Part shown: positions 9,501 to 55,958 of the stretch, piece by piece | Layout: each line of letters begins with the position of its first letter | Numbering within the stretch: the stretch's first letter is position 1 | Made by a program: the position numbers and the translations under genes | NCBI RefSeq assembly: GCF_024713975.1 | Contig: NC_091111.1 | Span: 20,487,501 to 20,551,500, forward strand | DNA length: 64,000 nt | Direction: 5' to 3' | DNA from: Paralichthys olivaceus | Lineage: Eukaryota; Chordata; Actinopteri; Pleuronectiformes; Paralichthyidae | The notes under the pieces: generated by a model | Told to the model about the DNA's origin: nothing | The model's database searches: none | Seen by the model: only the letters and a program-made list of their open reading frames with translations

Positions 9501-12500
9501 GTGACCACAAGTATGGATGTGTCCTCCTGGAGGAGCTGGACTACCTGTGCACCCTGATGGTGCTGCAGGTAGCGCCTCAAGTAGTGACAAGGACTCGAGA
9601 AGGACATAGAACTAGAATGAGTCAGGAAGGACCAGGAGAGAGCAGCTGTCTGTGGACACCACATTAAAAACATTCCCTGTCTGATGACCTTGTTACTTTG
9701 ATTTGCATTAAAGCAGAGAAACTGATTCACAATCACTTGTTCTTCTAAATGGACACATTGATCTGAAGTTTAACTTTAAACTGGACATTAAGGTTCCCTC
9801 ACTTTACTGAGCTGTGTATCTGTCACACACAAAAAAAATGCTGTGGTGTGTGAGATGTCGGGGGTTGACCTGGACGGTGTGTGGTTGTTTGGGATGTTTG
9901 TAATGAGTGACGCTGAAGCTCAGAGAATCTTTGGCGTTTTCGATCAACATCAGAGTGGAACACTGAAACAGAGCGAGAGAGAGAAAACAGCGTCAGCTTC
10001 AATTGTACAAAGACTCAAAAAAAATCATGAGTTGTAGTGTTCCTCACTGAGATGTGCGTTTTATAGACGTAGTGTTCTCCGCGGCGTTTGGTGATGAGCA
10101 GCACGCGATCAAACAAGAACAGCGTTCTCTCGTTCTTGGCTCGATGAACTTTGAAGGTTCCCTCCAAAACCAGTTCTCCGTACGTGGTGAGGTCAGGACC
10201 TTTCCAGTTCAACAGCAGAGACTGAACCTCCTGAACGAATACACAAACACACCTTTTATCTGGGCTTTTACTTTGTACAGTGATTTCCTGATAGCACAGC
10301 GCCACCTGGAGGGACATCAACAACTAATCAACTTCCATCGTAAAACTGCTGCTTTAAGACGTCACCTCAGAGCCGTTCATCAAATATATGTGTTAAACCA
10401 ATCATCTGATTCACCTGCAGCCTGACAGCATGTTCATGTTTCCTCTTCATGTCATTGATGTACCAGGCCACGCCCGTCATCGTGTAGATCGCCTCCTCCA
10501 CCACCTCATACCCCTCCTCCTCAGGGTCAAAGTGCTTCGCTATCTCCTAAACAACAACAACATCCAACAGAATCAGTCAGACAGAACACACTTCTGTGAT
10601 CCGCTCCTGAATGTGCTGGAACAATGTTTGGCTGCTTGAACGCTCAGTCTGAGACACGACAGAGGACATTACATCACCTCTGTACAATGATCTCAGATCT
10701 GCTGCTTTACACACTGCAGGTGTGAAGGGTTCTTACCTGGAGCAGCAGGTGGTATTTCAGGATCCTCTGAACAGGTTTGAGTAGATAAGAACCCAAAGGT
10801 AGCGAACGCTTCAACTGTGCCTGACGCTCCCGAAAAAACTTTGCCAGAGATTTAATCCTCATGCAATCAGTGAGTGCTGCCACAGAACTGCAACAGATGT
10901 GAACATGTGTGAACATGTGTGAACAAGTGTGAACATGTGTGAACATGTGTGAACAGGTGTGAACAGGTGTGAACATGTGTGAACAGGTGTGAACAGGTGT
11001 GAACAGGTGTGAAAAGGGTCTGTACTACGAAGCTGGTTCAACATATCCGGCTGAACTTAACCTAACAAACACAGTCAGGCTAAGTGGTCACATGACGCTG
11101 GTTATCAACTCCTTTTCTTTTAGATATGAGTGTGTGCACATGAAAGGGGCGGAGTTTACTGCATATGACCAATCACAGACGGTTTGACTGACAGCAGAGC
11201 TGAAGATCAAACTGTTGAATAATAAAAATCAGAGGAGAACAAACATCCAGAATAAAAGAAACAGTTCCAGCTGCTAAACACAGAAGAACAGCTGGTGACA
11301 CATCTGGGATTGTGCCCAAGTGTAAGTTACAGCGCCCCCTGGGGACATTTGGTAAAAATATATAACGTGACCATGTGGTCAGTGGGCGGAGCTTCTATAC
11401 TGTTTGATCTCTTATCTCCAACTTTACCTGGAGCAGGTCAGCTGCTCAAGATAAGTTACCATGGTAATTTACCCCGAGAACATGTGAACGAGCTTCGTAG
11501 GACGGAAAACTTAACCTGAAGTTAAGTGATAACTACAAACCCTGCTTCATGGGACAGAGCTCAGGTAGAAACAGGTGTGAACAAACCTCTGTAAAACAAC
11601 ATGAGGAAGTGTGTAGTCAGAACTCACTTGGGGTAGTTGGTGCAGTACTGAGTGTAGATCTCAAAGTACTCGCTCTGAAACAAACAGGAAACAGTAAAGT
11701 CCAGTTTCAAGTTCAGATTCTGATTCAGATTCAGATTCATTCTCTCACCTTCATGACGAAGCAGCGAGCGACCCTGACGGGGTCGTTGTCACACAGGTCG
11801 AGAGCCTGAAGCAGCTCACTGTGAACAATAAACACGTCACCATGACGACACTACAACAAGCCCCACTTCTGAACAAAATGAATCTTTAATTTGTTCTGAA
11901 ATTCTGAATCAGTTTGATAAAATCAGTTCACAATGAAACAAACACAGCATTTAGTCACAATGGAGCTTTTGATCGGATCACATGATCTTCAGCAGGTGAA
12001 GTAACCATGGCAACATTTTCACATTGGAAGTGGTAACCAGTGAAGGGAGCGGAGGAGTGGTGTAGTGTGAGGAAACATCATCGATCCAATAACCACAGAT
12101 GAAGATCATGTGATCAGTTTTCACTTCAATGAAAGAAACAGTGAGAGAAAACTCTGACACGTAATGGATCCACCTGTCCAGCAGGTGGAGCCAGTGTGCT
12201 TCATGCCGCTGACCAAATAAAAACATGTGTCTGTGTGCGTGTCCACAGCAAAACACTCCACACGGGTTACGCCGGTCCGACAAACAAACTCACCCTCTGA
12301 AACGAACCAGCAAGCGCTAACCCTGAGGAAACGTTACAACACACGAGACTCAGGTCAAAGGTCAGAGGTCACATCACTTCTTCTCAACATATTTCAGTTT
12401 GTCACCTGTTGAACTCGTAAATGTCCTCGATGTTTCCAAACAGAGAGCAAACCTGCTCAGGACGAATCGACAAATCAGAGCAGTCGATGATGTGAGCCAG

Positions 12501-13808
12501 GTAATCCTAAAGAGACGACATCAAGATGAAAGCGTAAATGTTTTACAGAGTAAATGTTTTACAGCGTAAATGTTTTACAGAGTAAATGTTTTACAGAGTA
12601 AATGTGATCTTTATTTATTGATGATATTGATTTAGAATTGACAGATGAGTTTGTGAGCAGGTTCCTTTCTGTGTATAATTTATTGATTATTTATTGTTTT
12701 GGGATCGTCCAGGTTCTCGCTCTGATCCTCGTCGTTACATCAGCAGCTCATCCAGGTCTTAACCAGGTGATTATCACCATGACGACGGCGGCGACTGATC
12801 TCAGCTGAAACCTGCTCATTGTCACGTGTCGTGTCCCTGTCTGACCTGCAGGGGGGGCGTCGTCCAGGAACATCCTGTGGACTTTAACTTTATAGTAGAA
12901 GTAGCAGCACACGTCAGAAATTTTTATATAAAATATATATAAATATGTAAATATAATAGTTATATGCGTATAAAAAAAAGATATAACATATATTATTATT
13001 AATATAAATTTAATATAAACAGAGCTGATGATGTCACCTCTACGATCATGCGCAGGTCTCTGACATACATCCTCTCGGTCTCGATGATCTCCATGATGAC
13101 CCGGTCTAGGTAGGTAGGTTTAGGGTTCGGTGTCATGCTGCCGGTCATGAACGGCGACGTCTGCTGCCGGCCCCTTGAGGCCCGACTCGCCGGCAACTCT
13201 TTGTTGTTGTTGTTGTTGTGGGTGAGGCCAAGGCTCCACCCCTTACTGTGGCAGGGTGGGCATGACCCCTCGTCACTGTGTCCTGCGGGGCTCAGGTCTG
13301 GGTTGATGTGGGGGGTTTGGATGGACGGCGGCGGTGCAAGGATGTCGTCTCTGGATCCTGAGGACAGTGTGGAGATCAGGCTCGCAGGGCAAGGGTCCGA
13401 CAATGGCAGGTCAGAGTCAGAGGGCGGGGCTACCGGCGCGTGCTCATTACTGCTACTGGAGGCGGTGGAGAGGCGGGGCGACTCTGAGGGGAGAGGTGTG
13501 ATTGACAGAACTGATCAGGATCTCAAAGATTTTTCACACTTTCAAAATAAAAGTTAAGTTATGAGGGAGTGGGAGGAGTTAGTGTCAGTGAGGAGACAGG
13601 ATGTGACATCACAGCAAGAGAATGTGACATCACACACAAGTCGGAAACGTGACGAGGAAACAGCTGGTGACACGGAACGCTGAAATTTCAAGTCTGAATA
13701 TCAGACATGCAAGTTTTCTGTGACGCAGCATTATGTAACAGTTTAAGTCAGCTGGTTTCCATGGTGATTAAGAGTGTGGTCATGTGACCTGAGATTATCT
13801 TTGAGTGA

Positions 13809-17382: not shown

Positions 17383-18110
17383 CTAGACATTGTAAGTGGA
17401 AATGTAAATATTAAAAATATTAGAAATATTAGAAATATAAAAACAGATAAATAAAAATACAGCCATGGTGAGTAGTAGTGAGTAGAGACATGAACAGGTG
17501 TTGTAGAGCCTGACAGCAGCCGGGATGAAGGACCTGCAGAACCTCTCCTTCTTACACCATGGGTGTAACAGTCTGCAGCTGAAGGAGCTGCTCAGGGACC
17601 ACAGTGTCAGTCTCCTCAGCAGGTGGAGGCGACTCTGGCCCTTCTTGTAAAGAGCATGGGTGTTGTCAGTCCAGTCCAGTTTATCGTTGAGGTGAACACC
17701 CAGGAATTTGTAGCTCTCCAGTACCTCTATGTCCGATCCCTGGATGTTCACCGGTGTGAAGTGGGATTCTTTCCTCCGGAAGTTTACGATCATCTCCTTC
17801 GTCTTGCTGGTGATGAGCTGAAGCTGGTTGAGCTCACTCCAGCTGACAAAGTCCCTGATGACCGTCCTGTATTCCAGGTCGTTCCCCTCAGAAACACATC
17901 CAACAATGGCTGTGTCATCGGAGATCATCTGGATGTGGCAGTGGGTGGTGTTGTGGGTGAAGTCCGATGTGTAGAGGGTGAAGAGAAAGGGGGAGAGCAC
18001 CGTACCCTGAGGGGCACCTGTGCTGCAGTGCACCACGTCAGACACAGTGATGGAGCCTCACAAACTGTGGTCTGTTGGTGAGGTGGTCAGTTGTCCATGC
18101 AGCCAGGTGT
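17383..18110 (-). mobile_element. CR1/Rex1-type LINE reverse-transcriptase fragment, internally deleted
   Basis: The minus strand encodes GAPQGTVLSPFLFTLYTSDF, the RT motif-4/5 region. It continues with DDTAIVGC, LNQLQLITSKTKEM, VLESYKFLGVHLNDKLDW and LYKKGQSRLHLLRRL, all typical of the end of a CR1/Rex1/L2-class reverse transcriptase. The frame then jumps directly to SSSFSCRLLHPW-KKERFCRSFIPAAVRLYN, the usual C-terminal tail, so a segment between them is deleted. The catalytic Y/FADD position reads SDD. The copy is 5' truncated and dead. Confidence 0.85.
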
Positions 18111-19459: not shown

Positions 19460-20548
19460 TCATACAGCTTTAGTGGTGCTGTTGTAAACGAGCATGTCCT
19501 GTTCCGGCAGCGCCACATGGGCAGGGCCTGTACTGACAGGCCTATGGGAGCGCTCCCTCCTGTTCTTCAGGAAGCAGTAGGTCAGGATGGCCAACAGAGC
19601 CAAGATGGCCACCGACAGGACCACAGCCAGAGCTATGGCGCCTGAGGAGGAGAGAGTGAGGTCACTTCCTGTCCGTTTACACCTGATTTTAAAATCTTTT
19701 GCAATTATCTTACAGATCTGACCTGAGTCGTCTTTGTCATCCTTGTCGTTCTCAAAACGGCCAAACATACCTCTGAAGAAGACGTTTTGCTCTGAGGACA
19801 CAAACACAAGGTTAAGTACAACTATAGGGAACCCTATGGAACAACAGGGAACTAAATGGAACTATAGGGACACATACGGGACTATATAGACTATATGGAA
19901 CTATAAAGTCAGAACTGTATGGCATTTTGACAACATGGACTGTATTGCGACACGTGCAGCTACATCTGGCACTATTTTTTTCCTCTTTTGTACCAGTCAC
20001 TCCATCGCAGATATCACCGCAATAGTTTTCTTCCTCAAAGTTGTTCTCATTTCCTCGACAACCACCGTAGGTGAAGCGGTGGCACTTCCTGTCCAGGGGG
20101 TCGTAGTACCAGCGGGTGTGACTCGCCCGACATGGACCAGTGTGGGGGGGCTCCGCACACCGAGCTGTGGCAGGTTGGGATGGGGTTAGAATGTAACATG
20201 TTAGCTTCAGCGGATAATTAGCAGGTGTAGAAGAAGAAACAGACCTTTCCTCTGGTTGACGTCAATGCTCAGCAGGCGAGTGAAGGTCTGGTTTACTGAG
20301 GAAGAGGAGGAGGAAGATCACAGCTGTGTGTTTAGTCTTGTGTGTCTGTTTTGTGAGCACGTTTTGTTTGATCCTCACTCAGATGTCAATGAGTGTGTGT
20401 GTTGTTTGTGTGTTACGTTTGTGGCAGTGTTCCTCATCTGATCCATCGCTGCAGTGGTTCACACCGTCACACTCCAGACCTCTGTCCAGACAGCAGCCAC
20501 TGCTGCAGATCAGCTGATCAGGATGACATGCTGACCCACACACCTCTG

Positions 20549-20583
<35 letters not shown>

Positions 20584-20732
20584 ATCCTTCACATCCTAAA
20601 CGGTTAACCCTAACCCTAAGGTGCATTGTGGGACTGACCTGAGGGGAAGGTGACACCCCTCTCTGCTGTTGCTGTGGACAAAAAAACAGAAACATGAATC
20701 ATCAATCGGTCTCATGTACCTGTGTCTCTGTG

Positions 20733-20763
<31 letters not shown>

Positions 20764-21075
20764 CCGTGTTACCTTTGACATCTTTGCAGGTGGACAAACA
20801 CTCTTCTTTAGTCACGTAGTTGTTGTTGTTTGGTTTACAGCCTCCGAACACAAACTGCTCACAGACTCCTGTAATAGCGTCGTAGTGCCAACGAGGAAAC
20901 GCGCCGCGACACGGCCCGACCTTCACAGCAGCCAAACAGTAAACTGAGACGGAAACATGACGCCATCAAACGTTTCATAAAGTTTCATATGAAAAAATGT
21001 TTGTGACAAAAGAAGAAGAGAGAATAAGGAAACAGGGCAAACTGGTTAGCATGCTAACCCCAGTGGAAGAAAACA

Positions 21076-21160
<85 letters not shown>

Positions 21161-23387
21161 CAGGGATTCCAGTCCAACCAGTTTGAGGCGAGGTGTGGCT
21201 CCTCAGTGTAAAAACATACTGATCACTCAACACTGATGATCAACTGATACCAATCAATACTGACACATTATTTATGGAGCTTCCTATGTCCATATACTTC
21301 TGGCCAAGTTAAAGCAGTTTCACAGATTTTATTTTGAAGGGAAGCACTGCATGTATGTCTTGTGTGGCGGGAAAACAACTAAATCATCAGTGGACTACAT
21401 TTCCCATGAGCACTCACAGCTGGACAGCTCTGGGCTGAGGACAAGGACGGTGACCTTGGTATCGTCTGATTGGCCGTTGGAGTCAGTGACGGTGAGCTTG
21501 AACAGGTATGAGCCTGTCTGCAGGTTAGAGAGTTGCACCTGGTCAGGTAGAGCGGTCCCCTGCAGAAATCACAAATCATTGAATTTCAAATGACAGCAAC
21601 AGATTCAACACTAACCACTTTGTTACTACACTATATATCTATATCTATAGATATATAGATATATTATATATACAATGAAATGATGTGAATTCATGTGCCC
21701 AAAGCAGTTTCAGTCAGTTTTGTAATATGAGATAAAGTACGCACAGTACCTAGGTTTGCTCTGCAATCCTTGACCTGGGGTATTGTAGGAATGATGCTAC
21801 ATGTCCCTTCCTGTTGTTTTACTTTTTCCTTATCATAGTTTGTCATGTACGTTTGAATAATAATAAAAAGTACTTTTACAACTTTAAACACTTTAATTCA
21901 ACTTTAATCCACCGCTCATCTGTTCACACACAACACGCAGGTTTGCCAGAAAAATAAAATACTTTAATGACGTTTTTGTAAATGTTAGGCCCCGCCCCCT
22001 GTGTTAGCAGGCTTTACCTCCATCTTGACGCCAGCGTCTCCGCTCAGCAGACTCCAGTGATAGTCAGTGATGTGGGCGTCGCCCAGCGTCAGGCTCTCGA
22101 TGCCGTTCAGGATCACCATCTCACCAGGCTGAACGATGACATCACGACCTGCGTTGGCGATGGGCTCACCTAAAGAAACAGTGATGTCACTGTGAAACTT
22201 TTTGTTGTTGTGTTGCTATGGAGACGCTATTTTAGTTTCAATCTAGAGAAACTGTCAAAATAAAAGCAGCTGAATTGACTGTGATCAGCTCCTGTTCTTT
22301 CAAAATAAAAGCAGCTGGATTGACTTTGATCAGCTCCTGATCTTCTCAGGTGAATCATCTCCATGACAACACAGCAACTGTACTCACTGAAGAAGAGCAT
22401 GTGACTGAAAGTTGTAAATATTGATCTGTGTACTGATCTGTGTGCTGTGTACTGATCTGTGTACTGAACCATGTATTGATGATCTGTGTACTGAACTGTG
22501 TACTGATCTGTGTACTGTGCACTGATCTGTGTACTGTGCACTGATCTGTGTACTGATCTGTGTACTGTGTACTGATTTGTGTACTGAACCGTGTACTGTG
22601 TACTGATCTGTGTACTGAACCGTGTATTGATCTGTGTAGTGATCTGTGTACTGATCTGTATACTGATCTGTGTACTGAACCGTGTATTGATCTGTGTACT
22701 GTGTACTGATCTGTGTACTGATCTGTGTTCTGTGTACTGTGTACTGATCTGTGTACTGTGTACTGATCTGTGTACTGAACCATGTATTGATGATCTGTGT
22801 ACTGAACCGTGTACTGATCTGTGTACTGTCTACTGATCTGTGTACTGAACCATGTATTGATGATCTGTGTACTGAACCGTGTACTGATCTGTGTACTGTG
22901 TACTGATCTGTGTACTGTGTACTGATCTGTGTACTGATTGATCCAGTGACTGTAATGGTGCAGGTGTGGACTCACCTGCCCCCTGTGGTCCCGCCAGGTG
23001 CTTCTGGAACACGGACTCTCTGATGAAGCTCTGGTATCCGGCCTGGTTCACGAACCTGCACACGAAACGGTTTCTGTGGACGCAGCTGAACAGGACGCAG
23101 GTGCGATTCTCAGATTCTGTCGCTCCGGCGGCGCGCGGCTCCAGCAGCGCTACGCTGCAGCGCGGGTTCCCGCAGCACGCGCGCTCACAGGCCTCCAGGG
23201 TGTGAACGCGCGCAGTGGCTAGTAGCGCCGCTCCCTCCTTCACCGCGTCCTCCGCGTCCAGCACGAAGTCATCCTGACCGGAGCGGTGAGCCGCGCGGCA
23301 CTGCGCGTCCTCCGCCGCTCCGCCCTGCCGCAACAGCGGCAGCAGGAGGAAGAGGAGCAGGGGCGGCAGCAGGGAGGAAGAAGTCAT
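19460..23387 (-). CDS. spint1: SPINT1 / HAI-1, membrane Kunitz-type serine protease inhibitor
   Basis: HAI-1 is a type I membrane protein that inhibits matriptase, hepsin and HGF activator at epithelial surfaces. Exons in transcript order are 23387-22976, 22169-22018, 21559-21418, 20943-20773, 20671-20639, 20545-20417, 20295-20245, 20164-19994, 19791-19723 and 19641-19460, giving about 503 residues with every phase consistent. The order of parts is: signal peptide (about 1-24), MANSC domain (about 28-130), PKD-like domain (about 138-235), Kunitz 1 (about 238-290, GPCRGAF, P1 Arg), LDLa (about 307-345, CDGVNHCSDGSDEEHC), Kunitz 2 (about 366-420, GPCRASH, P1 Arg) and a transmembrane helix (about 446-468). 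The short tail carries LVYNSTTKAV, like the LVYN end of mammalian HAI-1. SPINT2 lacks MANSC and PKD, so it is excluded. The donor of exon 9 could alternatively lie 10 bp further on. Confidence 0.95.
21079..21160. repeat. (GT)40 microsatellite
   Basis: An almost pure GT run of about 80 bp lies in the spint1 intron between the PKD and Kunitz 1 exons. It could be polymorphic and Z-DNA-prone. Confidence 0.97.
21633..21674. repeat. AT-rich palindrome
   Basis: The run 'tatatctatatctatagata' continues as a nearly perfect inverted repeat centred near 21650. It is able to form a hairpin or cruciform and lies in a spint1 intron. Confidence 0.7.
22415..22945. repeat. Large minisatellite, 'tgtactgatctg' unit, in spint1 intron 1
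   Basis: About 530 bp are built from the 12-mer TGTACTGATCTG, with variants 'tgtactgaaccg' and 'tgtattgatgatctg' arranged in higher-order blocks. It ends about 30 bp before the first coding exon's splice donor. Open frames through it (YTDQYTVH-type repeats) are not real proteins. Confidence 0.95.
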
Positions 23388-24554
23388 TTTTTTAGCTGCA
23401 GTCAGTGTGTCAGAACTTTGACTTCACCGCGTGTCGCTCCTCGTCTCTTCAGGTGTGTCTCACCTTTTCACAGAGGAAAATAACTCATATGACGTCACTC
23501 AGGTGTGTCCAGGAGGCGGAGTCTCTTTGTTGAAGGGTTAGTAATAAAAACACTGATTACAGTGTTTTTATTGTTTCATCTTTATGTACAGTCTATGTAA
23601 TAATCTCATAATGTTTGTAAACATGTTTGTTTTATCTCAATAAAATCAGATGTGTTTAAATTTTATTTACACAAGTTATTGCTGTGTTATTGTTACTGAC
23701 ACTAAACAATATCAAAACACGATCATTAGGAATTCATTATGATGTATTTACAGTTCAGTACTTGAGTAAATGTACTTGTAACTCATTACCAGTGTGTAGT
23801 ATCACAACAAAAGCTCTGAAGATCTCAAGTGATTTTCATTTGAAGTCTTGTAGTTTGAGTAGTGACCAGCAGGAGGCACTATCATATTTTCTCGCTCATC
23901 TGAAGGTTTTTTATACATTTTTCTTTAATCATTTTTTTTTGTCCTGACGATGTAAACTGGAAACAGCTGCTGCACGTGGTCATATCAGAGTTCTTTAATC
24001 TGTTGAGTCTCGTTATTGATTATATAAATGTGTGTTCTATATATATTTATAATACACATGTTGTTGCTTTTTACTTAAATTCATTTAAAATAATCACATA
24101 AATAAAAACTAAATGTGTTGAGTTCTGACTGGTCAAGAACATTATGATCAATAAATGTAATAAAAGATGAATCAATAAATCAATAAGATGAATTAAAGCT
24201 CTGAAAATAAAACCTTGTGTTGTGGAAAATAAATGATATAGAAAAATGATCAAAGTGAAGATAAATATTCTCATATTCATACATTTATTGTGTCGTTATT
24301 CTGTTATTAATCAATCAGTCATCCGATATCAATCTATTATTAATTTATGATTCGTTATTAATCTGTTATCGATTTATTATTTATTATTAATTTAATTATA
24401 ATTTCTTTATACATTATTAACGATTCGGTGCAATTACGGTCAGCGTGTACACGGTTCAGCGGTTCACACTCCGACCAGCAGGAGCGCTGAAACAGGATAT
24501 GGGCCAGAGCGGAAGTGACGCCAGGGGTTCTGGTAGAATCGTCCAATGAGAAGC
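23388..24554. other. Divergent intergenic region between spint1 and bub1b
   Basis: The two genes point away from each other across about 1.2 kb, so both promoters should lie here. The spint1 side is GC-rich near 23390-23520 and the rest is AT-rich. A CCAAT box (24543) sits just before the bub1b leader exon. No further gene was seen. Confidence 0.55.
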
Positions 24555-30482: not shown

Positions 30483-30791
30483 GTATGTTAGTCACACCCT
30501 GAACACATTCACTCAATCTCGTACTTCCATCTTAGTGAGGACAATCACTGGAGTAATATTTAGATGATTCATTATTATTTAATGTTGTGTTAATGTTGTC
30601 AATGTTGTGATCATGCTGTGTCTGAGTGTGTGTCTATATGTCTGTGTTTGTGTGTCTGAGTGTGTGTCTATATGTCTGTGTTTGTGTGTCTGTGTGTGTG
30701 ACTCCATCCTTCATTGATTTTTCCGATTCAGCAGCAGTCATGTTGTTGTTTCCCTCAGGTCTCATCACTCCCCTGTTGTCACTGTGTTGCC

Positions 30792-36942
<6,151 letters not shown>

Positions 36943-37309: not shown

Positions 37310-38790
37310 GTTTTTGTATTATTGTATTATTATTTGTATTGTTTTTATATTATTTACAGTCAAACTTTACTTTGTACATCAATAAATAATTATCTTAATG
37401 ATCTACATCTAAAATACATTATGAATATTTATTTTATATTTGTTCATGACATAATTTTCTAAATAATTCAGTCAATGATTTTATTATAACTGAACCACAA
37501 CATTTATTCTTCATTTTATACATAATTACTTTCATTTTGAAATCTCTAAATGTCAATAAATGATTAAGATTCAGATTTTTACACAAAATATTTAAAGTGA
37601 TGAAGAAGAGGCTTGTGTGAGTTTATCAGGACAAAGAGCCTCTGAGATAACATGAAGTTGTTTTAATGAGTGTGTGTTTGTGTCACATTACAAGAACACA
37701 AAGAAGCAAATAAAGACGAATTCAAGTGAAAATTCGACGTTTGTTTGTCTCTTCAATGCACAAACATCAGATAAAAAATAAATTCAATAATTATTCAACA
37801 TTTTCTCAAAAGTCAAAGTTACATTTTCCTTCTAGAACTTAATTTATACATTTATTTAAAAGATGAAAGTTTGTTTCTCGACAGAAACACTTGAAACACT
37901 AATACAAATGTTTTACTGCATTTAATTCAGTTTATTACTGATTACATTTATTATTTTCACTTTGATTTGAGCCTAAGTTGTTTTTAAATGTTTGTCGTCA
38001 CAAACTGACTTTGCTCGGGTTTCAACCCTGAAGATAAGTTTCTATTTGAGTCGAGACTCCGAGATAAAGAGAGACAAACACTCGAGTCCATCACAAAACA
38101 CTCGTCACATTTCAAACTATTTCTGCTTTTCTCTTTTTATCAGAAACGTTAGAACAAACCTAAAATCTTCTGTGAATTTAAACTGTTTAGTTTTAGAGAT
38201 TTAAACACACATTTAATCATTTCATTATGTTTCACAAATGTTTATATAAACAGACATTAGCCTCACATTTTCTCTCCAGAAAAAAACATTAAAACAAATC
38301 CTAAATCAAACTGAAGACAAAGTGATTAATTTGAAATTAATTTAGTAAAGATAAATTCTTCAAGTTCAAATAAAGAAACAAACTCATACACTGAAGTTTC
38401 TCTCTTTTTATTTTAGAAATATGTTCAAGAACAAAATACTGAACTAAATAAGATGTTAGAATTGTAGTTAGTGCAGATCTGCTGAATTGATAATTCATTA
38501 TAATAATAATAAGTAATAAGTATTCAGAAGTGAGAAGGTATTTTAAACACTTAACTGGATCAAAACGTTTGTAGCTTTACATCCTTTAAGTCGACGGTTG
38601 CAATGATTTAACTGCAGAACACACTGAGATGAGTCAGTTCTAAATGAAGAAGTGTCTGAGTCTTTATCTGCAGACAGATAAGCACTGAAACTCTACTCTC
38701 CTAAAATGGACTTAAACAGCCAAAGGTCCTGAATCTGCCCTCGAGGCGCTTCCACGTCCGAGGACAAATTTAGTTTGACCTTTTTTTTCT
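37310..38790. other. AT-rich intergenic between pak6 and the myosin gene
   Basis: No protein-coding sequence, RNA gene or clear repeat was recognised. The last few hundred bases must contain upstream control of the myosin gene. Confidence 0.5.
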
Positions 38791-38795
38791 TTCAG

Positions 38796-38835
38796 CAGTT
38801 GTCTCCTAATTTGGTCCACAGTGATACTTTATAAA
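38796..38835 (+). promoter_or_regulatory. Muscle-type core promoter of the intronless myosin: E-box, CArG box, TATA box
   Basis: An E-box CAGTTG lies at 38796-38801, a perfect CArG box CCTAATTTGG (the SRF site) at 38805-38814, and TATAAA at 38830-38835. The initiation codon follows 83 bp after the TATA box, leaving a short unspliced 5' UTR of roughly 55 bp. This spacing is typical of striated-muscle genes. Activity is inferred from the motifs. Confidence 0.7.
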
Positions 38836-38917
38836 CGGCCGCCTGCAGCAAAGACTCTGCAGATCTTCTTCTCTGTTTGTTGTCTGTTAAAACTGCTGAA
38901 GACCTCCACCCTCAAAT

Positions 38918-41900
38918 ATGGGTGATGCTCTGATGGCCGAGTTTGGGAAGGCGGCTCCTTACCTTAGAAAGTCAGACAAAGAGCGCCTGGAAGCTCAGAC
39001 CAGACCTTTTGACATCAAGACTGAATGTTTTGTAATTGACGATAAAGTTGAATATGTGAAGGGACAAATCCAGAGCAAAGACGGAGGGATGGTGACTGTC
39101 AAGAAGGATGATGGAACAACTGTAACTGTGAAGGAGTCCGATGTTCACCCACAGAACCCGCCAAAATTTGATAAAATTGAAGACATGGCAATGTTCACTT
39201 TCCTCCATGAGCCTGCAGTGCTGTTCAACCTCAAAGAGCGTTACGCAGCGTGGATGATCTACACCTACTCTGGGCTCTTCTGTGTCACCGTCAACCCCTA
39301 CAAGTGGCTTCCTGTCTACGACTCTGAGGTGGTGGCAGCCTACAGGGGGAAGAAGAGAACCGAGGCCCCCCCTCATATCTTCTCAATCTCTGATAATGCC
39401 TACCAGTACATGCTGACTGACAGAGAGAACCAGTCCGTCCTCATCACCGGAGAATCCGGAGCAGGAAAGACTGTGAACACTAAAAGAGTCATCCAGTACT
39501 TTGCCAGCATTGCAGCTGTTGGTGGTGGAGCCAAAAAAGACACCAGCAAGGGTACACTAGAGGATCAAATCATCCAGGCAAATCCTGCACTGGAGGCCTT
39601 TGGCAACGCCAAAACATTGAGAAATGACAATTCATCTCGTTTTGGAAAATTCATTCGAATTCACTTTGGTACGAGTGGCAAACTGTCATCTGCCGACATC
39701 GAGACGTACCTGCTGGAGAAGTCACGCGTCACTTTTCAGCTTAAGGCTGAAAGGGACTATCACATTTTCTACCAGATCCTTTCTAATCAAAAGCCAGAGC
39801 TGCTGGACATGCTGCTGATCACCAACAACCCGTATGACTACTCCTACATCTCCCAAGGAGAGGTAACAGTATCATCCATCAATGACTCGGAGGAGCTGAT
39901 GGCCACCGACAGTGCTTTCGATGTGCTCGGCTTCACTCCAGAAGAGAAGATGGGTGTCTATAAACTTACCGGTGCCATCATGCACTACGGCAACATGAAG
40001 TTCAAACAGAAGCAGCGTGAGGAGCAGGCTGAACCTGATGGAACGGAGGCTGCTGATAAATCAGCTTACCTGATGGGGCTGAACTCTGCTGACCTCATCA
40101 AAGGCCTGTGTCATCCCAGGGTCAAGGTAGGAAATGAATATGTCACCAAAGGCCAAAGTGTGGACCAAGTTTACTATGCCGTTGGTGCTCTGGCTAAGTC
40201 AGTGTATGAAAAGATGTTTAGCTGGATGGTGGTGAGAATTAACCAATCCCTGGACACCAAACAGCACCGACAGTACTTCATAGGAGTGCTGGACATTGCT
40301 GGATTTGAGATCTTTGATTTAAACACCTTCGAGCAGCTGTGCATCAATTACACTAATGAGAAACTGCAACAGTTTTTCAACCATCACATGTTTGTGTTGG
40401 AACAAGAGGAGTACAAGAAGGAAGGGATTGATTGGGAGTTCATTGACTTTGGGATGGACTTACAAGCGTGTATTGACCTAATTGAGAAGCCGCTTGGGAT
40501 CCTGTCAATTCTGGAGGAAGAATGCATGTTTCCCAAAGCCAGTGACCAGACTTTTAAGTCCAAGCTCTACGATAATCATCTGGGCAAGAACAAGATGTTT
40601 GAGAAGCCGAAGGCAGCAAAGGGGAAAGCAGAAGCTCATTTTGCTCTGGTTCACTATGCTGGTACTGTGGACTACAACATCGCTGGTTGGCTGGTCAAAA
40701 ACAAAGATCCCCTGAATGAAACAGTGGTTGGTCTTTACCAGAAATCCTCTCTGAAGCTCCTCAGTCTGTTGTTTTCAAGTTATTCAGGGACTGATGGTGG
40801 TGACAAGGGAAGTGGCAAAGGAGCCAAAAAGAAAGGCTCCTCATTCCAGACGGTGTCTGCACTTCACAGGGAGAACCTGAATAAGCTAATGAACAACCTG
40901 AAGACCACACATCCTCACTTTGTCCGCTGTCTAATTCCAAATGAGAAGAAAAACCCAGGAGTCATGGACAACTGCCTTGTGATGCACCAGTTGCGCTGTA
41001 ATGGTGTCCTAGAAGGCATCAGAATATGCAGGAAGGGTTTCCCAAACAGGGTGCTGTATGGCGACTTCAAACAGCGGTACAGGATCCTGAATGCCTCTGC
41101 CATTCCTGAGGGTCAATTCATTGACTGTAAGAAAAGTGCTGAAAAGTTGCTGGGATCACTGGACATTGACCACACCCAGTACAAGTTTGGCCACACAAAG
41201 GTTTTCTTTAAAGCTGGCTTGCTGGGAACTCTCGAGGAAATGCGAGATGAGCAACTCTCTCGGATCATCACCAGGATCCAGGCTAATGCCCGGGCACTCC
41301 TCATGAGGGCACAGTTTGCTAAACTAGTGGAACGTAGGGATGCTCTGATGGTCATCCAGTGGAACCTTCGCTCTTTCCTTGGTGTAAAAAATTGGCCCTG
41401 GATGAAGCTGTTCTTCAAGATCAAACCTTTGCTAAAGAGCGCTGAATCCGAGAAAGAGATGGCCAACATTAAAGATGAGTTCAACAAGCTAAAAGAAGCG
41501 CTGGAGAAATCAGAAGCAAGACGAAAGGAAATAGAGGAGAAAACGGTGACTCTTCTCCAAGAGAAGAATGATCTGACTCTGCAAATCCAGTCTGAACAGG
41601 ATACTCTGACAGATGCTGAAGAACGCTGTGAACAGCTTATTAAGAGCAAGATTCAACTGGAGGCCAAGCTGAAAGAGATGACAGAAAGACTCGAAGATGA
41701 AGAAGAGCTGAATGCAGACCTCACAGCTAAAAAACGTAAACTTGAGGATGAAAGCTCTGAGTTGAAAAAAGATATCGATGACCTGGAGCTGACTTTGGCC
41801 AAAGTTGAGAAAGAGAAACACGCTACAGAGAATAAGGTGAAAAACCTAACAGAGGAAATGGCTTCCCAGGATGAGAACATCATGAAACTGACCAAAGAGA

Positions 41901-44722
41901 AGAAGGCACTGCAGGAGGCTCACCAGCAGACACTGGATGACCTTCAGAGTGAAGAGGACAAAGCCAACAGTTTAAACAAAGCTAAAGTTAAGCTGGAACA
42001 ACAGGTAGATGATTTGGAGGGCTCACTGGAGCAAGAGAAGAAAGTCAGGATGGACCTTGAGCGTTCAAAGAGGAAGCTCGAGGGAGACCTGAAACTGACC
42101 CAGGAGAGTTTGATGGACTTGGACAATGATAAACAACAGCTGGAAGAAAAGCTCAAGAAAAAAGACTTTGAAATTGTCCAAATAAATTCAAGACTAGAAG
42201 ATGAACAGGTGGCTTCAGTTCAGCTCCAGAAGAAGCTGAAAGAAAACCAGGCGAGAATTGAGGAGCTTGAAGAGGAGCTGGATGCTGAGCGTGCAGCCCG
42301 TGCCAAAGTGGAGAAGCAGCGCTCCGATCTTTCCCGTGAGCTGGAGGACATCAGCGAACGCCTGGAAGAAGCAGGTGGAGCAACATCGGCTCAGGTGGAG
42401 CTGAGTAAGAAAAGAGATGCTGAATTTCAGAAGCTGCGAAGGGAACTGGAAGAATCAACCCTCCACCATGACTCTACTGCTGCCACCCTGAGGAAGAAAC
42501 ATGCAGACAGTGTCGCTGAACTGGGTGAGCAGATTGACAACCTGCAGCGAGTGAAACAGAAGCTGGAGAAAGAAAAGAGTGAGCTTAAACTTGAGTTGGA
42601 TGACTTGTCTTCTAACATGGAGAGTGTTGTGAAGGCCAAGTCAAACATTGAGAAGATATGTCGTACAATGGAAGACAACATGAATGAGTACAAGAGTAAA
42701 TATGAGGAAGCTCAACGAAGTGTCAATGACTTAAATACCCAGAGGGCCAAGCTGCTCACTGAAAATGGGGAATTTGGACGCCAGCTGGAGGAGAAGGAGT
42801 GTCTAATTTCACAACTGACTAGAGGGAAGAATTCATACAACCAGCAGGTAGAAGATCTACGCAGGCAGCTAGAAGAAGAGATCAAGGCAAAGAATGCACT
42901 TGCCCATGCTGTGCAGTCTGCTCGTCATGACTGTGATCTGCTCCGAGAACAGTTTGAAGAAGAGCAAGAAGCAAAGGCTGAGCTGCAGAGAGCTCTGTCC
43001 AAAACGAACACTGAGGTCTCAGCATGGAGGACAAAATATGAAACTGATGGAATTCAGAGAACAGAAGAGTTGGAAGAAGCCAAAAAGAAGCTTGTTCAGA
43101 GACTGCAGGAAGCAGAGGAGGCCATTGAGGCAGTGAACGCAAAGTGTTCATCTCTTGAGAAGACCAAACATCGCCTCCAAAATGAGATTGAAGACCTAAT
43201 GCTGGACCTCGAGAGATCCAATGCAGCATCTGCAGCACTGGACAAGAAGCAAAGAGCCTTTGACAAAGTTTTGGCAGAGTGGAAGCAAAAATTTGAGGAG
43301 TCACAGTGTGAGTTGGAGGCCTCCCAGAAGGAGGCTCGGTCTCTGAGTACTGAACTCTTCAAACTGAGAAATGCCTATGAAGAGAGTCTGGATCAACTCG
43401 AGACAATGAAGAGAGAGAACAAAAACCTCCAGGAGGAGATCTCGGACCTCACTGACCAGCTGGGGGAGGGTGGTAGAAGTGCCCATGAACTGGAGAAGAT
43501 TCGGAAGCAGCTTGAACAAGAAAAGGCTGAGCTCCAGTCAGCACTGGAGGAGGCAGAAGGTTCCCTGGAGCATGAAGAGAGCAAGATCCTGCGAGCTCAA
43601 CTTGAATTCAACCAGGTGAAGGCCGAGATGGAGCGGAAAGTGGCTGAGAAAGACGAGGAAATGGAGCAGGCCAAGAGAAACTACCAACGCATGCTTGAGT
43701 CACTTCAGTCCTCTCTGGAATCTGAGACCAGAAGCCGCAATGAGGCCCTAAGAATCAAGAAGAAGATGGAAGGTGATCTAAACGAGATGGAGATTCAGCT
43801 CTGCCAAGCTAATAGGCAAGCAGCTGACGCCCAAAAACAGCTCAAGAGCCTCCAGGCCTTCCTGAAGGACACTCAACTGCAGCTGGATGAGACACAACAT
43901 GGCAATGAGGACCTGAGAGAGAACATCGCTCTCCTTGAAAGACGAAACAACCTGATCCAGGCTGAGCTTGAGGAAGTGAGGGCTGCCCTCGAGCAAACGG
44001 AAAGAAGTCGGAAACTTGCTGAACAGGAGCTGACTGATGCAAGTGAGCGAATGCAACTTCTACACTCACAGAACACTAGCCTGATCAACCAGAAGAAGAA
44101 GCATGAAACAGATCTCCTCCACCTGCAGAATGAGATTGAGGAGGCCATACAGGAAAACCGCAATGCTGAGGAGAAGGCAAAGAAGGCCATCACAGATGCA
44201 GCCATGATGGCTGAGGAGCTCAAGAAGGAGCAGGACACCAGTGCCCATCTGGAGCGCATGAAGAAGAACATGGAGCAGACCATCAAAGACCTGCAACACC
44301 GTCTGGACGAGGCCGAGCAAATCGCCATGAAGGGCGGCAAGAAGCAGCTTCAGAAACTGGAGGCTCACATCAAAGAGCTGGAGAATGAGCTAGAGGCCGA
44401 GCAGAGGAGGGGAACCGAATCTATCAAAGGAGTTCGCAAGTATGAACGCCGCATCAAGGAGCTCACCTACCAGACTGAGGAAGACCGCAAGAACATGGCT
44501 CGCCTCCAGGACCTTGTGGACAAACTACAGCTCAAGGTAAAATCCTACAAACATGCAGCTGAGGAGGCTGAGGAGGCGGCAAATACCAACATGGCCAAAC
44601 TCCGCAAACTGCAGCACGAGTTGGAGGAGGCGGAAGAGAGAGCCGACATTGCCGAGTCACAGGTGAACAAGCTAAGGGCAAAGACCAGGGATGGATCCTC
44701 CAAGAAGGGCCTGGATGAGTGA
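38918..44722 (+). CDS. Intronless full-length sarcomeric myosin heavy chain, slow/cardiac type
   Basis: This 1934-residue reading frame covers a complete class II muscle myosin heavy chain with no introns, whereas vertebrate sarcomeric MYH genes normally have about 40 exons. The motor has the SH3-like N-terminus, P-loop GESGAGKT, switch [10 protein letters not shown], switch II DIAGFE, loop 2 ([14 protein letters not shown]), the actin-binding [12 protein letters not shown], and the SH1/SH2 helix [19 protein letters not shown]. The neck follows with IQ-type light-chain sites ([37 protein letters not shown]). An uninterrupted heptad coiled-coil rod of about 1090 residues runs to [11 protein letters not shown]. 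The start [20 protein letters not shown] and the KKGLDE end look like the slow/cardiac (myh6/myh7/vmhc/smyhc) clade rather than fast skeletal. No stops, frameshifts or lost catalytic residues were seen. It is best read as a functional retrogene. The exact orthologue is not known to me. Confidence 0.96.
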
Positions 44723-45149
44723 GGATGCCCCAGAATCAACATCACAGGTGATGGCTTCCTCGTGCCAAATATGAATTATTTCTAAACGTAATTGACTTAA
44801 GTCCAGTTACCCACGTACATCAACATTTTCTTATTGTATTTTGTTGATATGACGCCCTCCGTCTCTCCTCATTAACATCTGTGAATCTGTTTTGATTGAC
44901 AGGTGTTCCTGTTTCTGGGCCATTGGAGATACGCAGCTGAAACTAAGTGCAGCAAATATCGTGTTCTGATCTGTTGACATGAGCAGTAGAATTCTCCCTG
45001 TTGACCTCTGCTGAGTGGCTGAGTTGTTTGCATCTCGTGTGAACGTTTATGTGGATGAGGGAAAGTAACGTCAGCAATTTGATTTGAACATGGGGTTAGG
45101 CTAACCCTAACCCTAACCTTATTATGTTAGGATTTGGATCTTCAAATTT

Positions 45150-45285
45150 AACTGAATTAAATGCCTTTTATTTTAGTTCATTCATCTTTTTGCCATGGAT
45201 TTTTTTTTGTGAAGCACTTTGTAACCTTGCTTAGAAAAGTGCTATACAAATAAAGTTATTATTATTAACAACTCCAACTCACAAT
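45150..45285 (+). repeat. LINE/SINE-type 3' tail ('gtgctatacaaataaagttattatt')
   Basis: The motif 'gaagcactttgtaacc...aaaagtgctatacaaataaagttattattatt' is a widespread 3' end of fish non-LTR elements or their SINE partners. It lies about 430 bp after the myosin stop codon. Confidence 0.65.
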
Positions 45286-47698: not shown

Positions 47699-49750
47699 CT
47701 ATAGTCTCTTGGTATGTTTGGAGTTATAGTGGCTCCTCATGTCTTTACGGAGGCGGAACTTCTCGCCACAGACGCCGCAGATGTACAGGTGGACGTCCAT
47801 GTGTTTCTCCAGCTGCTCTCCACCAGGGAAGATCTGGAAACACACTTGACAGATGGTTTCTCCTGCGGACAGGTGGGAGATCATGTGTCGGACGTGGTCA
47901 TGTTTGAGGAAGGTTCCCTGGTCACAGACTGGGCACACGTAGCGAGCCATGCCTTTGTGCATGTCTGTGTGTAACCGGAGCTGGCGCTCCCGCAGGAATT
48001 GTTTCCCACAGGTCTGGCAGGTGAACTGCTTCTCCTTGGTGTGGACGGTGTAGTGCTCCCGCAGGTGACAGCGCTGGTAGAAGCCTTTGCCGCAAATGCT
48101 GCAGAAGTGTTTGCGACGGTGATCTGGTTCGGCCCCCTCCTCCAGCAACACCGGACGGAACAGCTCCTGGTCGTGGCAGGACAAGGCATGCTCCAGCGCC
48201 ACATTCTCGTTCTGGAAAAGTAGCCCGCAATGAGGGCAGGCCAAGTCTGCAGCCTCCAGCAGGCCCTCCTCCATCCCTTGTGGCTCCTCCAGCAGCGACG
48301 CCTCGTCCTCCCCGTGGGAATCTGACTCACCGCCTTGGGATTCTCCGCAGCGCTCTGCATGCTCCTGAAGCTGTCGACCTTTGATCAGCACCTGACCACA
48401 CCGTCCACAGGCACATATGTGGCCCATGTGGTTGGACAGGTAGTGGGCCGACTTGTCCTCATCTGTTAATAGAGTGCCACAGAGTTCACAGGGGGTGTCG
48501 GCGTCTTGCTTCTCGTCTTTAACTTTACGAAGTTTCACAGGAATCCCTGAATTGTCACAGCTGGACATGTGGACTTCAAAAGGCTCACTGCTCTTCTCCA
48601 AGCCTGAGACGTTGGGCTCTGGGTCCCGATCCGAACCTTTGTCCCTCAACATGTCTTTACGTGTTACGTCATTGAACCTTGTGCTACAGTCTCTTTTAGC
48701 ATGCTCGCCGACTCTGACCACTTCGATCTCAGGGAACATGCTTTCGTCTGGTTCTGTCTTGATGGAGATGCTCCGAGTCGACCTGGGCTCGCCATCTGTC
48801 CCAGCTGCCACCGACCTGATGGTGAGGTCAGAGTTGACCTTGGCCTCTGGCCACTCATCCTCGCCTTTACAGTGAACCCTGTGCTCTTCAGTGCTCTCAG
48901 AAGCAGAGCTTTCAGCTTTATTTGAGTCATTGTCGCCCTCTGCGTTACCTCTTGGAGGGTGGTAGGCCTTCCGGTTTGTGCAGGTAAGGATGTGCTCGAT
49001 TAAAAGCTTCTCACAACTGAAGACGAAGCCACAGTCATCACAGGTGTAGGTGCGCCCAAACCGAGGACGGTCTTTGAGAGTCGAACTTCTGCCACTGGAC
49101 CTCTTTCTCAAGTCACATGGCTGCTCAACTGTTCCGTCCACAGCCGGGGTTGCCACGATCAGAGGAGTGTTCACCACCTCCTCCGCCACCACTGGCCTGG
49201 TGATGGTTGCCGGAACAGCTGGACGTCCGGCACTGCTGCTGACAGGTTTCGGTAGGTGCTCCACTTCTGGTGCAGGAGGCCCCTGCTGCTCGTACATGCG
49301 AACTCCAAACATCATTTTTCCGCCAGCTGGGCCGGCGGAGGAGCTGGACGAGGAGGAGGAGGCCGAGGAGGATGGGGTGAGGTTGGAGCTCCTGATGTCC
49401 CTGAGATCCTCCAGTGAGTCAGGGATGTAGTACATCTGCAGGTACGCCATGGATGACTTAAGCTCATCAAACTCATAGCTCCCCACGACGATGCGTCCAA
49501 GGTACATGAGCTGCAGGATGAGGTCGAAGCACTCAGCGCTGATCTGCATGTTGCTGAGGTCCAGTCGCCCTGTCCCCTGCTGGTCCCGGATAAACATCAT
49601 CCTGAAGTAGGAGCTGCAGGCTGCCAGGACGGCCTTGTGTGCCCTGAAGTAAATGTCACCAATGGCGATGAGGCAGTCACACAGGAAGCCCCACTCTCGC
49701 TGGTTGTTGAGCTGCTGGAGGACGTGGTCGCTGTGGCTCGGCCTCGCCAT
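47699..49750 (-). CDS. zbtb1: ZBTB1, BTB/zinc-finger transcriptional repressor
   Basis: ZBTB1 is a nuclear repressor needed in mammals for lymphoid development and DNA-damage tolerance. The whole coding sequence is one exon of 683 residues, as in mammals. The start is MARPSHSDHV at 49750, four bases after a splice acceptor (ctctcctgtctgcag); an in-frame ATG at 49777 lies inside the intron and is rejected. The BTB domain covers about residues 1-125 (VLQQLNNQREWGFLCDC, AHKAVLAACSSYFRMMF). A Ser-rich stretch follows. Zinc fingers include CDDCGFVFSCEKL, a UBZ-type segment (CACGRCGQVLIKGRQLQEH) and a C-terminal C2H2 array with GKGFYQRCHLREHYTVH, CGKQFLRERQLRLH, QVCFQIFPGGEQL and CGVCGEKFRLRKDMRSHY. 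Its divergent partner is zbtb25, as in mammals. Confidence 0.97.
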   Translation of the reverse strand: MARPSHSDHVLQQLNNQREWGFLCDCLIAIGDIYFRAHKAVLAACSSYFRMMFIRDQQGTGRLDLSNMQISAECFDLILQLMYLGRIVVGSYEFDELKSSMAYLQMYYIPDSLEDLRDIRSSNLTPSSSASSSSSSSSAGPAGGKMMFGVRMYEQQGPPAPEVEHLPKPVSSSAGRPAVPATITRPVVAEEVVNTPLIVATPAVDGTVEQPCDLRKRSSGRSSTLKDRPRFGRTYTCDDCGFVFSCEKLLIEHILTCTNRKAYHPPRGNAEGDNDSNKAESSASESTEEHRVHCKGEDEWPEAKVNSDLTIRSVAAGTDGEPRSTRSISIKTEPDESMFPEIEVVRVGEHAKRDCSTRFNDVTRKDMLRDKGSDRDPEPNVSGLEKSSEPFEVHMSSCDNSGIPVKLRKVKDEKQDADTPCELCGTLLTDEDKSAHYLSNHMGHICACGRCGQVLIKGRQLQEHAERCGESQGGESDSHGEDEASLLEEPQGMEEGLLEAADLACPHCGLLFQNENVALEHALSCHDQELFRPVLLEEGAEPDHRRKHFCSICGKGFYQRCHLREHYTVHTKEKQFTCQTCGKQFLRERQLRLHTDMHKGMARYVCPVCDQGTFLKHDHVRHMISHLSAGETICQVCFQIFPGGEQLEKHMDVHLYICGVCGEKFRLRKDMRSHYNSKHTKRL

Positions 49751-50459
49751 CGCCCTGCAGACAGGAGAGGAAACCATGGAGAGAGACGATAAGACTTGAG
49801 TGTAGACTCAGAAATCCATGTTTACTTAAGTGTGACCAACAATGGCACTGAGCAACAACATTCTAAACTGCATCATATCAGAAAATCATTTGTTGGTGAG
49901 TCTCAGTTCATCTGATCCCATTGTTAATAAACATTTACTGACAGTTCAGGACATCAAGTGGATGAAAACTGCTGAAACAGTGCATCTAATGACAAGCCCA
50001 TTTGATTTGTCCTGTTTTAATGATGCAGGGTTCACGAGTAAGTGTGTTAAAGACAGGTGGTGGCTACACCCTTCACTGTTACTGTACAATAACCTCATGG
50101 CGTCTTTTTTGTTCCTTGTTTGTTTTTGTGACTTGAAACTAAACACTGGTTTATACACAGGTCAAATGACTCTGATCCACCTCCATGACAGTTTCAACAT
50201 GTAAATCCCACGGCAAGGTTCGCTGTGAGTTGTCTTTAACACATATATATCATGGGTTGTTACATGAAGCTCAATAGTCATGTCAGAGAGCTTCATACCA
50301 ACAGTGAGTTACATGTCAAACTAAACACATACTTAAGCTAACATATATATTTAAGGAGCCAAAATACTGTTTCAAAATTTGATTCAAATTATTGATTTTT
50401 ATGATTAAATCATTTATTGCTAAAATCTTCAGGATACTTTGTCATTTTTTTCAATTTTT

Positions 50460-54190: not shown

Positions 54191-54526
54191 GTCATCTCAG
54201 GTCGTTCTTATCTCTCTGATGTTTGTTCGTGTTTCTGATCAGTTTGGTTTGAATCACTTATTTAATGATATAAAAACAGGCTGAGACGTCATGATTGACA
54301 GCTGATACTGACTCAGGATTGGTCGAGAGCGTGTATGGGCAGGACTTCAATTCCACGGCTCCACTTCACGATCACTGCTGCACAGACTCTGACTGTAAAT
54401 GACGTCATCACCACAAGCAAAATTTGAGACGTGTCATTGTCTTATTTGGAGGCTTTGATATTTGTTTATAGACTCTGTTTTGTCTCAGTCTTGAGTCAGA
54501 CATGTTGTTGTTTTGCAGAGTGGGTC

Positions 54527-55958
54527 ATGGAGGTGTCGTCTCACAGCCTCTTCCTGCTGCAGCAACTCAACGTTCAGAGAGAGTTCGGCTTCCTGTGCGA
54601 CTGCACCGTCGCTATCGGAAACGTCTACTTCAAAGCTCACCGAGCTGTGCTGGCCGCCTTCTCCAACTACTTCAAGATGATCTTCATCCACCAGTCCAGG
54701 TCAGTCCGATGTTTTTCTAAAAGTTAACCTGTAACTTCATAAACCGCTGAATCCTCATTGTGTCGTGTGTGTCCTCAGTGAGTGTATAAAGATCCAGCCC
54801 ACAGACATCCAGCCCGACGTCTTCAGCTACCTGCTGCACATCATGTACACTGGCATGTGTCCCAAACAGCCAGTGGACCAGAGCCGGCTGCAAGATGGCA
54901 TCAAGTTCCTTCACGCCTACCAGCTGTGTCGGAAACCAGATGAAGGTGCACTAGATGCCACAACTGATGTGGTCCGTATGTCCAACCTGTATGGAATTCA
55001 GATCTCGTCCCAGCTGGCCAACAAGGATGTGTCTGGAGTCCCCAAGACCACCACGGTGTCCCGAGGGGCCCCAGAGGATGGATGCTCTTCAGTCCGGGGG
55101 GCACGGTCCCACTCACAGCTGTCCCTCCCTGTTGGACTGGAGGGGGTGCCTTCAGACCGCCAGGCTTCGGCACTTCGCAACGTCTGCTCTGTAGCGTCTG
55201 GAGATGATTCAGACATTTCTTCTCGAATCAAGCAGGAACAAGTAGAGGAGGAGGAGGCGGAGGACAGGGAGGGAGAGGAGGGGGCAGAGCCAGGATCCCC
55301 GTCTCCAGCCCAGGGCAGCAGTCCCAGTCTCCTGTTTAAAGACCGACCCCTGGTCCTGCTGTGCCCCAGCTGTGGAGAGCGCTGCTTGTCCCCGGAAGGC
55401 CTCCGGGAGCATCTATTCAGCCACGCCCTTGACCCTGCCCGCCTGATGGAGGGGTTGTCGCACGGGAGACAGCTGAACACCAGTGTCGAAGAAGGGCCAC
55501 GGGGGGGCCAAGAGCAGCTAGACGCTGGATGTCTGGAGGAGGCGCTGAGGCAGAGCCAGGCGCTGGCCAATCAGCTGGCTGCTGAGCTGAGGAGGAGTCG
55601 AGGGGGGGGAGGGGGGAGCAGCCCCACCCCCGCCGTCCTGCACTCCCGTAAACGTAAAATTGCCTGCGCTGTCTGCAGCCTGCGCTTCTCCCACAAAAGC
55701 CAGCTGCAAGAGCACATGTACACCCACACCGGCAAACCGTCCCGCTACCACCGCTACAACCGCCTCTGCAGCCAGCTCTTCCAGGCCTCCGCCCACTTTT
55801 GTGAGGGCGCCGCAGAGCCTGGGGGAGGGGGCGGGGTGCCAACTGCTGCCGCTGTCTCTGAGGAGGCAAACAGGGACACTCAGGACAACGGCAGCTCCTG
55901 CTACTCCCTGGACTCTGAGATCTCTCAGGAGAGTGTGGATGGCGTTCCCGTGGAGTAA
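54527..55958 (+). CDS. zbtb25: ZBTB25, BTB/zinc-finger transcription factor
   Basis: ZBTB25 is a nuclear BTB protein reported as a repressor in mammalian T cells. The coding exons are 54527-54699 and 54779-55958, joined in phase 2 to give 450 residues. The BTB domain covers about 1-125 ([60 protein letters not shown]), with the intron placed before ECIKI. A Glu-rich acidic stretch lies in the middle (about 215-230). Two C2H2 fingers follow at about 253-274 ([17 protein letters not shown]) and 354-374 ([21 protein letters not shown]). The C-terminal ESVDGVPVE resembles the mammalian end. The linker contains Gly/Ser-rich runs (GGGGGS) absent from the mammalian protein. Confidence 0.96.

Follow-up and report, generated by a model that had tools for sequence, protein, structure and literature searches.

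Genes for sarcomeric myosin heavy chains are a textbook case of multi-exon structure, and those closest to the gene studied here are MYH6 and MYH7 together with the fish genes vmhc and vmhcl and the slow cluster. Zebrafish vmhcl and vmhc are placed in tandem on chromosome 2 with amhc as the atrial isoform (PMC8783688), loss of zebrafish myh6/amhc is reported to abolish atrial contraction (PMC3602621, PMC9147009), and black rockfish is described as having a single MYH6 gene, which encodes 1934 residues (222.63 kDa, isoelectric point 5.62) and is expressed most highly in heart, as well as three tandem MYH7 genes (PMC8228858). We analysed a stretch of 64,000 nucleotides of the Paralichthys olivaceus genome (contig NC_091111.1 of assembly GCF_024713975.1; hereafter the window), in which a sarcomeric, slow/cardiac-type myosin heavy chain is encoded by a single exon (38918..44722, + strand). 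The window gene has the architecture and length of MYH6/MYH7 and their fish relatives, and its protein is 83% identical to the products of C16A and C16B, two genes of a cluster on chromosome C16 of the same genome; unlike the MYH6/MYH7-type genes, it is intronless, single, located on another chromosome and without an intronic mir-208. Judged from its sequence, it is very probably an ancient functional retrogene of the slow/cardiac type, where functional refers to selection on the sequence.

Parallels can be found among other retrogenes of teleosts. Hatching-enzyme genes are far shorter than the window myosin gene, and rhodopsin/opsin retrogenes are short genes too. In one study, the hatching-enzyme retrogenes of teleosts were proposed to have moved with their promoters (PMC6385490), and as in that case all introns are lost at the window locus, the chromosomal position is new and a promoter block is apparently kept, the differences being that the shared promoter is here a short block (CArG box, spacing and TATA box) and that the gene is far longer. 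The intron-less rhodopsin/opsin retrogenes, as described in two further papers (PMC11461388, PMC10339062), resemble the present case in that a retrogene takes a main role and intron-bearing relatives persist, but the window gene encodes a motor protein of 1934 codons whose full-length paralogs carry 35 to 38 coding introns. We recognised no description of an intronless fish sarcomeric MYH gene in the accessible text of the open-access literature searched, most subscription papers lying outside it, and public myh6 annotations may already show a single exon.

The window gene encodes a complete sarcomeric class II myosin heavy chain. One open frame of 1934 codons runs from the ATG at 38918 to the TGA at 44722 (1940 codons from stop to stop, 38900-44722), in agreement with an earlier sequence-only reading of this stretch, which had reported a single exon without intron, stop or frameshift; when the flanks were shuffled 20 times by mononucleotide, stop-free runs reached 241 codons at most. 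The protein has a computed mass of 222.52 kDa and an isoelectric point of 5.56, and its domain set is complete, consisting of an SH3-like N-domain, the motor domain, the neck and a full-length coiled-coil tail (Pfam Myosin_N at residues 32-76, Myosin_head at 88-765, which covers positions 2-679 of the 679 in the profile, and Myosin_tail_1 at 845-1922). The catalytic and neck motifs are undamaged, namely the P-loop GESGAGKT (39449..39472, residues 178-185), switch I (39623..39652, residues 236-245), switch II DIAGFE (40292..40309, residues 459-464), the SH2/SH1 helix region (40985..41044, residues 690-709) and the light-chain-binding neck end WPWMKLF (41393..41413, residues 826-832), all on the + strand; the motor motifs and the whole rod are preserved, as that reading had stated. 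In comparison with solved PDB structures, the whole protein scored highest against Myosin-7 (3486.5 bits, versus 3261.7 for Myosin-4; best 60 of 173 matches), and the motor alone scored highest against Myosin-6 (1536.9 bits, versus 1525.9 for Myosin-7; best 60 of 150); the motor shares 86% identity with the Myosin-6 chain of known structure that was included in the tree described below.

The genome searched was the window's own (588,085,608 bases in 25 contigs, with the window at C19:20487501-20551500). A search with the protein gave 107 matches, of which only the window gene was full length and uninterrupted, the remaining ones being exon-sized pieces on C2, C5, C7, C16, C17 and C21 (24 of 1992 first-look candidates scored). 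Among the matches listed for the motor DNA, at least 196 in number from 40 of 52 candidates scored, there was no second copy, and the closest other match had 92% identity over 143 bases, on C16. For the comparison of introns, 26 stretches of 10 kb were fetched and the protein was aligned to 17 paralogous loci, with introns called by a custom spliced-alignment script that admits GT-AG introns only. The results showed that all ten full or nearly full-length paralogs carry 35 to 38 coding introns each and no stops, with 30 intron positions identical in residue and phase common to the ten, versus zero introns in the window frame. All seven partly covered loci were intron-bearing as well (18 to 34 introns over 804 to 1541 aligned residues, no stops), and the terminal part of a third C7 gene has 3 introns in 159 residues. 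This contrast within one genome supports the proposal of the sequence-only reading that the gene is an mRNA-derived copy. Assembly artefacts are known in which a single exon is built from transcript sequence or contaminating cDNA, a case the reading had itself raised, and the coding part is exactly mRNA-like; however, no near-identical intron-bearing donor gene was found elsewhere in the assembly among the best candidates scored, the locus lies in a chromosome-sized contig (the 64-kb window holds no N bases), the upstream kilobase is unique and the 3' flank is unique except for one repeat fragment, and we give this explanation next to no credence.

The coding frame is held by strong purifying selection. 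Against the ten full-length paralogs, the proportion of synonymous differences (pS) was 0.743 to 0.779, which is saturated, in comparison to 0.107 to 0.161 for nonsynonymous differences (pN), and the highest protein identity to any of them was 83%; with saturation at synonymous sites in all ten comparisons, the window gene is no recent copy. In a codon-model branch test with six genes and 1921 of the 1934 codons, omega (dN/dS) was 0.037 on the window-gene branch and 0.072 on the rest of the tree, and omega = 1 was rejected with twice the log-likelihood difference (2dlnL) at 317.7. Four other outgroups gave omega values of 0.033 to 0.040, and omega = 1 was rejected each time (2dlnL 164 to 295). 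The selection which the sequence-only reading had deduced from the length of the frame is thus borne out with five outgroups, and the value near 1 that it had named, together with absence of expression, as speaking against a functional gene is far from what was obtained. Stop-creating changes make up 4.8% of all single substitutions in the frame, and at a neutral divergence of about 1.1% the frame would have escaped a stop with a probability of just 5%. An intact frame by itself would also be compatible with a very recent processed pseudogene that is open by chance, but there is no parent above 83% protein identity, synonymous sites are saturated, omega on the branch is 0.037, and the parent would have to have been deleted recently or be missing from the assembly, which makes a young pseudogene scarcely credible. 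A degenerate slow-type MYH remnant, in which 278 residues could be aligned at 48% identity and 2 stops occur, was observed between C16A and C16B (L011, C16 about 20451900-20453300, - strand). Taken as a decay control, this remnant suggests that MYH copies free of constraint degenerate in this genome; as a candidate parent it was ruled out, and in the tree it groups with the C16 genes, its branch being very long.

As to kinship, the protein of the window gene was 83.0% identical to those of C16A and C16B, 82.0% to that of C17 and 81.5% to that of C16C, in comparison to 75.1% to 76.5% for the six full-length fast-type genes. In trees of 18 rows, the window gene was sister to the clade of C17 and C16A/B/C with support of 99/98 for protein and 99/99 for codon positions 1+2, the four-gene clade itself having 100/100; the sister node was weaker, at 88/86, in a tree of 15 rows. 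These four slow/cardiac sister genes lie on two chromosomes, C16 and C17, other than that of the window gene, C19. In an Rfam search the C16B gene was found to contain a precursor of mir-208 (66.8 bits; L012:3670-3745, - strand, C16); we take this microRNA to be the one hosted by introns of MYH6/7, and its presence identifies the cluster on C16 as MYH6/7-type. The slow/cardiac parent suggested earlier from the termini agrees with the tree position and with an N-terminal start shared with C16A of that cluster. When mammalian MYH6 and MYH7 were added to a tree of motors, the window gene stood outside the mammalian genes plus C16/C17 (91/91), so that it groups with the mir-208-bearing cluster and mammalian MYH6/7, apart from the fast skeletal genes. 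A fish-only clade of motors was not rejected by the approximately unbiased (AU) test (p 0.124), and placements as sister of mammalian MYH6 alone (p 0.030) or of MYH6+MYH7 (p 0.043) were disfavoured. By these trees the window lineage is older than the C16/C17 split. The sequence-only reading had called the gene apparently a functional retrogene; selection on the sequence upholds the word functional, and the picture is refined in that the gene is old and branches before the slow/cardiac paralogs split.

The course of events that we consider best starts from four observations, the zero introns, the tree position, the location on another chromosome and the saturated synonymous divergence, from which the event itself and its date are inferred. 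A spliced transcript of a MYH6/7-type ancestor would have been reverse-transcribed and its cDNA integrated into a different chromosome, with pak6 on one side and a ZBTB gene on the other; the retrogene lineage would have parted before the slow/cardiac paralogs of the C16 cluster and C17 parted from each other, and a full-length thick-filament motor would then have been kept by strong purifying selection. Given mir-208, the C16 site would be the ancestral position and the chromosome of the window gene the new one. Several points weigh against this account. A poly(A) tract was sought at the locus and none was found, and there is no convincing target-site duplication, only one 11-bp repeat where 0.74 shared 10-mers are expected by chance, although both scars would be expected to have eroded after an old insertion. 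The aligned set leaves out several further MYH loci seen in the own-genome searches, and the branch tested for omega may span time before retroposition, so that drift is bounded and retroposition undated. Moreover, among the 1221 columns that do not vary between the ten paralogs there are 58 at which the window gene deviates; in leave-one-out counts the slow paralogs, for which closer sisters are available, deviate at 5 to 20 of 1168 to 1183 columns and the C21 gene at 52 of 1215. Finally, no MEF2 consensus site was found upstream of the gene, where 2.9 are expected.

In the upstream region of 1975 bp, from the end of the PAK frame to the myosin ATG, the last 218 bp hold a TATA box and a pair of CArG boxes. 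The distal CArG box CCTAAAATGG (38700..38709) is a consensus match to an SRF-type site, and the proximal one CCTAATTTGG (38805..38814) lies 15 nt upstream of the TATA box TATAAA (38830..38835, + strand), which begins 88 nt before the ATG. With transcription taken to start about 30 nt past the TATA box, the putative 5' untranslated region is 38860..38917 (+ strand), with no upstream ATG and no apparent intron. As read from these motifs, the window gene probably has a promoter of its own, made up of the TATA box and the two SRF-type CArG sites, from which an unspliced mRNA would be transcribed. Two or more CArG boxes were found in 0.8% of 3000 shuffles of the upstream region, and a CArG box followed after 5 to 40 nt by TATAAA on the + strand in 0.6% of 3000. 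Among the consensus sites tried, CArG boxes alone stand out: GATA, E-box and TBX5 sites showed no clear enrichment, M-CAT sites were absent upstream of the gene, and NKE-like and nuclear-receptor half sites were borderline (P 0.05 and 0.04, 200 shuffles), one of the latter being a lone half site, and as such slight evidence, at 38776..38781 (- strand, TGACCT on +).

Across the window and 230 kb of MYH loci, the same CArG-TATAAA arrangement occurs exactly twice, at the window gene and at C16B, with a spacer of 15 nt in both, at a chance rate of 0.13 per 64 kb from window shuffles. C16B appears by eye to carry two noncoding 5' exons, and its distance from TATA box to ATG is 102 nt when spliced (splice sites by eye) versus 88 contiguous nt at the window gene. 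Since the two spacers agree at no more than 3 of their 15 bases, the sequence does not prove that the promoter block is inherited; the data are compatible both with a block shared with C16B by descent and with one gained independently in response to the same demand, and the retrocopy may have brought its core promoter along. These observations bear on intron loss in place, by which a complete DNA duplicate including the promoter would have moved here and lost its introns through recombination with its own cDNA. The block shared with the mir-208-hosting C16B, the 88 versus 102 nt, as if introns alone had been removed, and the missing poly(A) tract and target-site duplication all fit such a course, and because these scars are absent it stays the main rival. 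However, when introns are lost in place, some of them usually survive, particularly towards the 5' end, and here all of the approximately 37 coding introns are gone, apparently together with both introns of the 5' untranslated region. Moreover, the resemblance of the flanks to the fetched MYH loci is confined to short or repeat-like stretches, and a search of the genome with 1 kb upstream of the gene gave no second match. We therefore regard intron loss in place as improbable and retroposition as the better account.

The 3' flank holds a fragment of a dispersed repeat (45115..45267, + strand) that is 82% to 90% identical to 39 other places listed, and apart from it no match to this flank was found elsewhere in the genome (40 of 1358 candidates scored). 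An AATAAA at 45249 inside the fragment is a possible polyadenylation signal, and a short CCCTAA run at about 45092-45118 adjoins the fragment.

In terms of role, the make-up of the protein points to a thick-filament motor of the heart or of slow muscle. We lean slightly towards its being the teleost chamber-specific heart myosin myh6/amhc, the atrial form affected in zebrafish weak atrium, with which it shares a size and charge that fit black rockfish MYH6 and a position outside the MYH7-like tandem cluster; zebrafish amhc, we presume, likewise lies on a chromosome other than that of vmhc/vmhcl. Against this, the orthology rests on length, mass and elimination, and C17 is a rival candidate for the name MYH6. 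At 52 motor positions that differ between MYH6 and MYH7, a post hoc choice of positions that are not independent, the window gene has the MYH6 residue at 22, the MYH7 residue at 15 and neither at 15, in comparison to MYH6 at 9 to 15 and MYH7 at 20 to 27 for the four intron-bearing slow paralogs, and this pattern is in keeping with the atrial gene myh6/amhc of fishes. The weak atrium residues of zebrafish, D1341 and H1524 (PMC7717946), have their counterparts, D and H, one residue earlier in the window gene; because each of the four slow paralogs carries the identical residues at these places, they have no discriminating value.

The neighbouring genes pak6 and zbtb1, named as landmarks by the sequence-only reading, stand. 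Upstream lies a group II PAK kinase (30702..36942, + strand; exons partly mapped) whose last exon is closest to PAK6, and downstream a BTB/C2H2 zinc-finger gene found by domain search (47699..49777, - strand), which we take to be ZBTB1. Within the PAK6 region, two frames (34798-35790, - strand) resemble by eye the C-terminal part of a Penelope-like element of GIY-YIG type, the longer of which matched no Pfam family, and near the last PAK6 exon there is a tandem array (36374-36596) of six copies of a 35-bp unit like degenerate telomere repeats, with 94% matches. Farther out are genes named by eye, with domains from the Pfam search where it gave any, presumably PLEKHG3-like (RhoGEF/PH, 549-13514, - strand), SPINT1-like (Kunitz/MANEC, 19460-23423, - strand) and a second BTB/zinc-finger-like gene that is ZBTB25-like (54428-55958, + strand, its frame 54428-54727 likewise by eye). 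Between the first two lies a fragment of a reverse transcriptase of the long interspersed nuclear element (LINE) type (Pfam RVT_1, 17383-18057, - strand). In the 64-kb window nothing reached the gathering score of an Rfam family, and no relatives in viral and prokaryote contig collections were confirmed by tblastn.

An old, complete and constrained intronless MYH gene suggests that a coding sequence of 5.8 kb can be retroposed in one piece and retained. With its introns gone, intron-based controls such as alternative splicing and intronic mir-208 are removed from a major muscle gene, an intronless gene being unable to host an intronic microRNA of this kind. If the window gene is the fish atrial myosin, the much-used heart genetics of zebrafish may rest on a retrogene, with a bearing on nonsense-mediated decay in mutants and on the origin of the promoter. 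A further and rather doubtful idea is that the atrial myosin of teleosts originated from a retrogene with its core promoter, copied from a transcript whose start lay before the CArG-TATA block, and that its motor converged on mammalian alpha-myosin, as the 22 MYH6 against 15 MYH7 residues at the 52 motor positions might suggest; if this were true, an alpha-like atrial myosin would have been reached separately in fish and mammals, in fish by way of an RNA copy.

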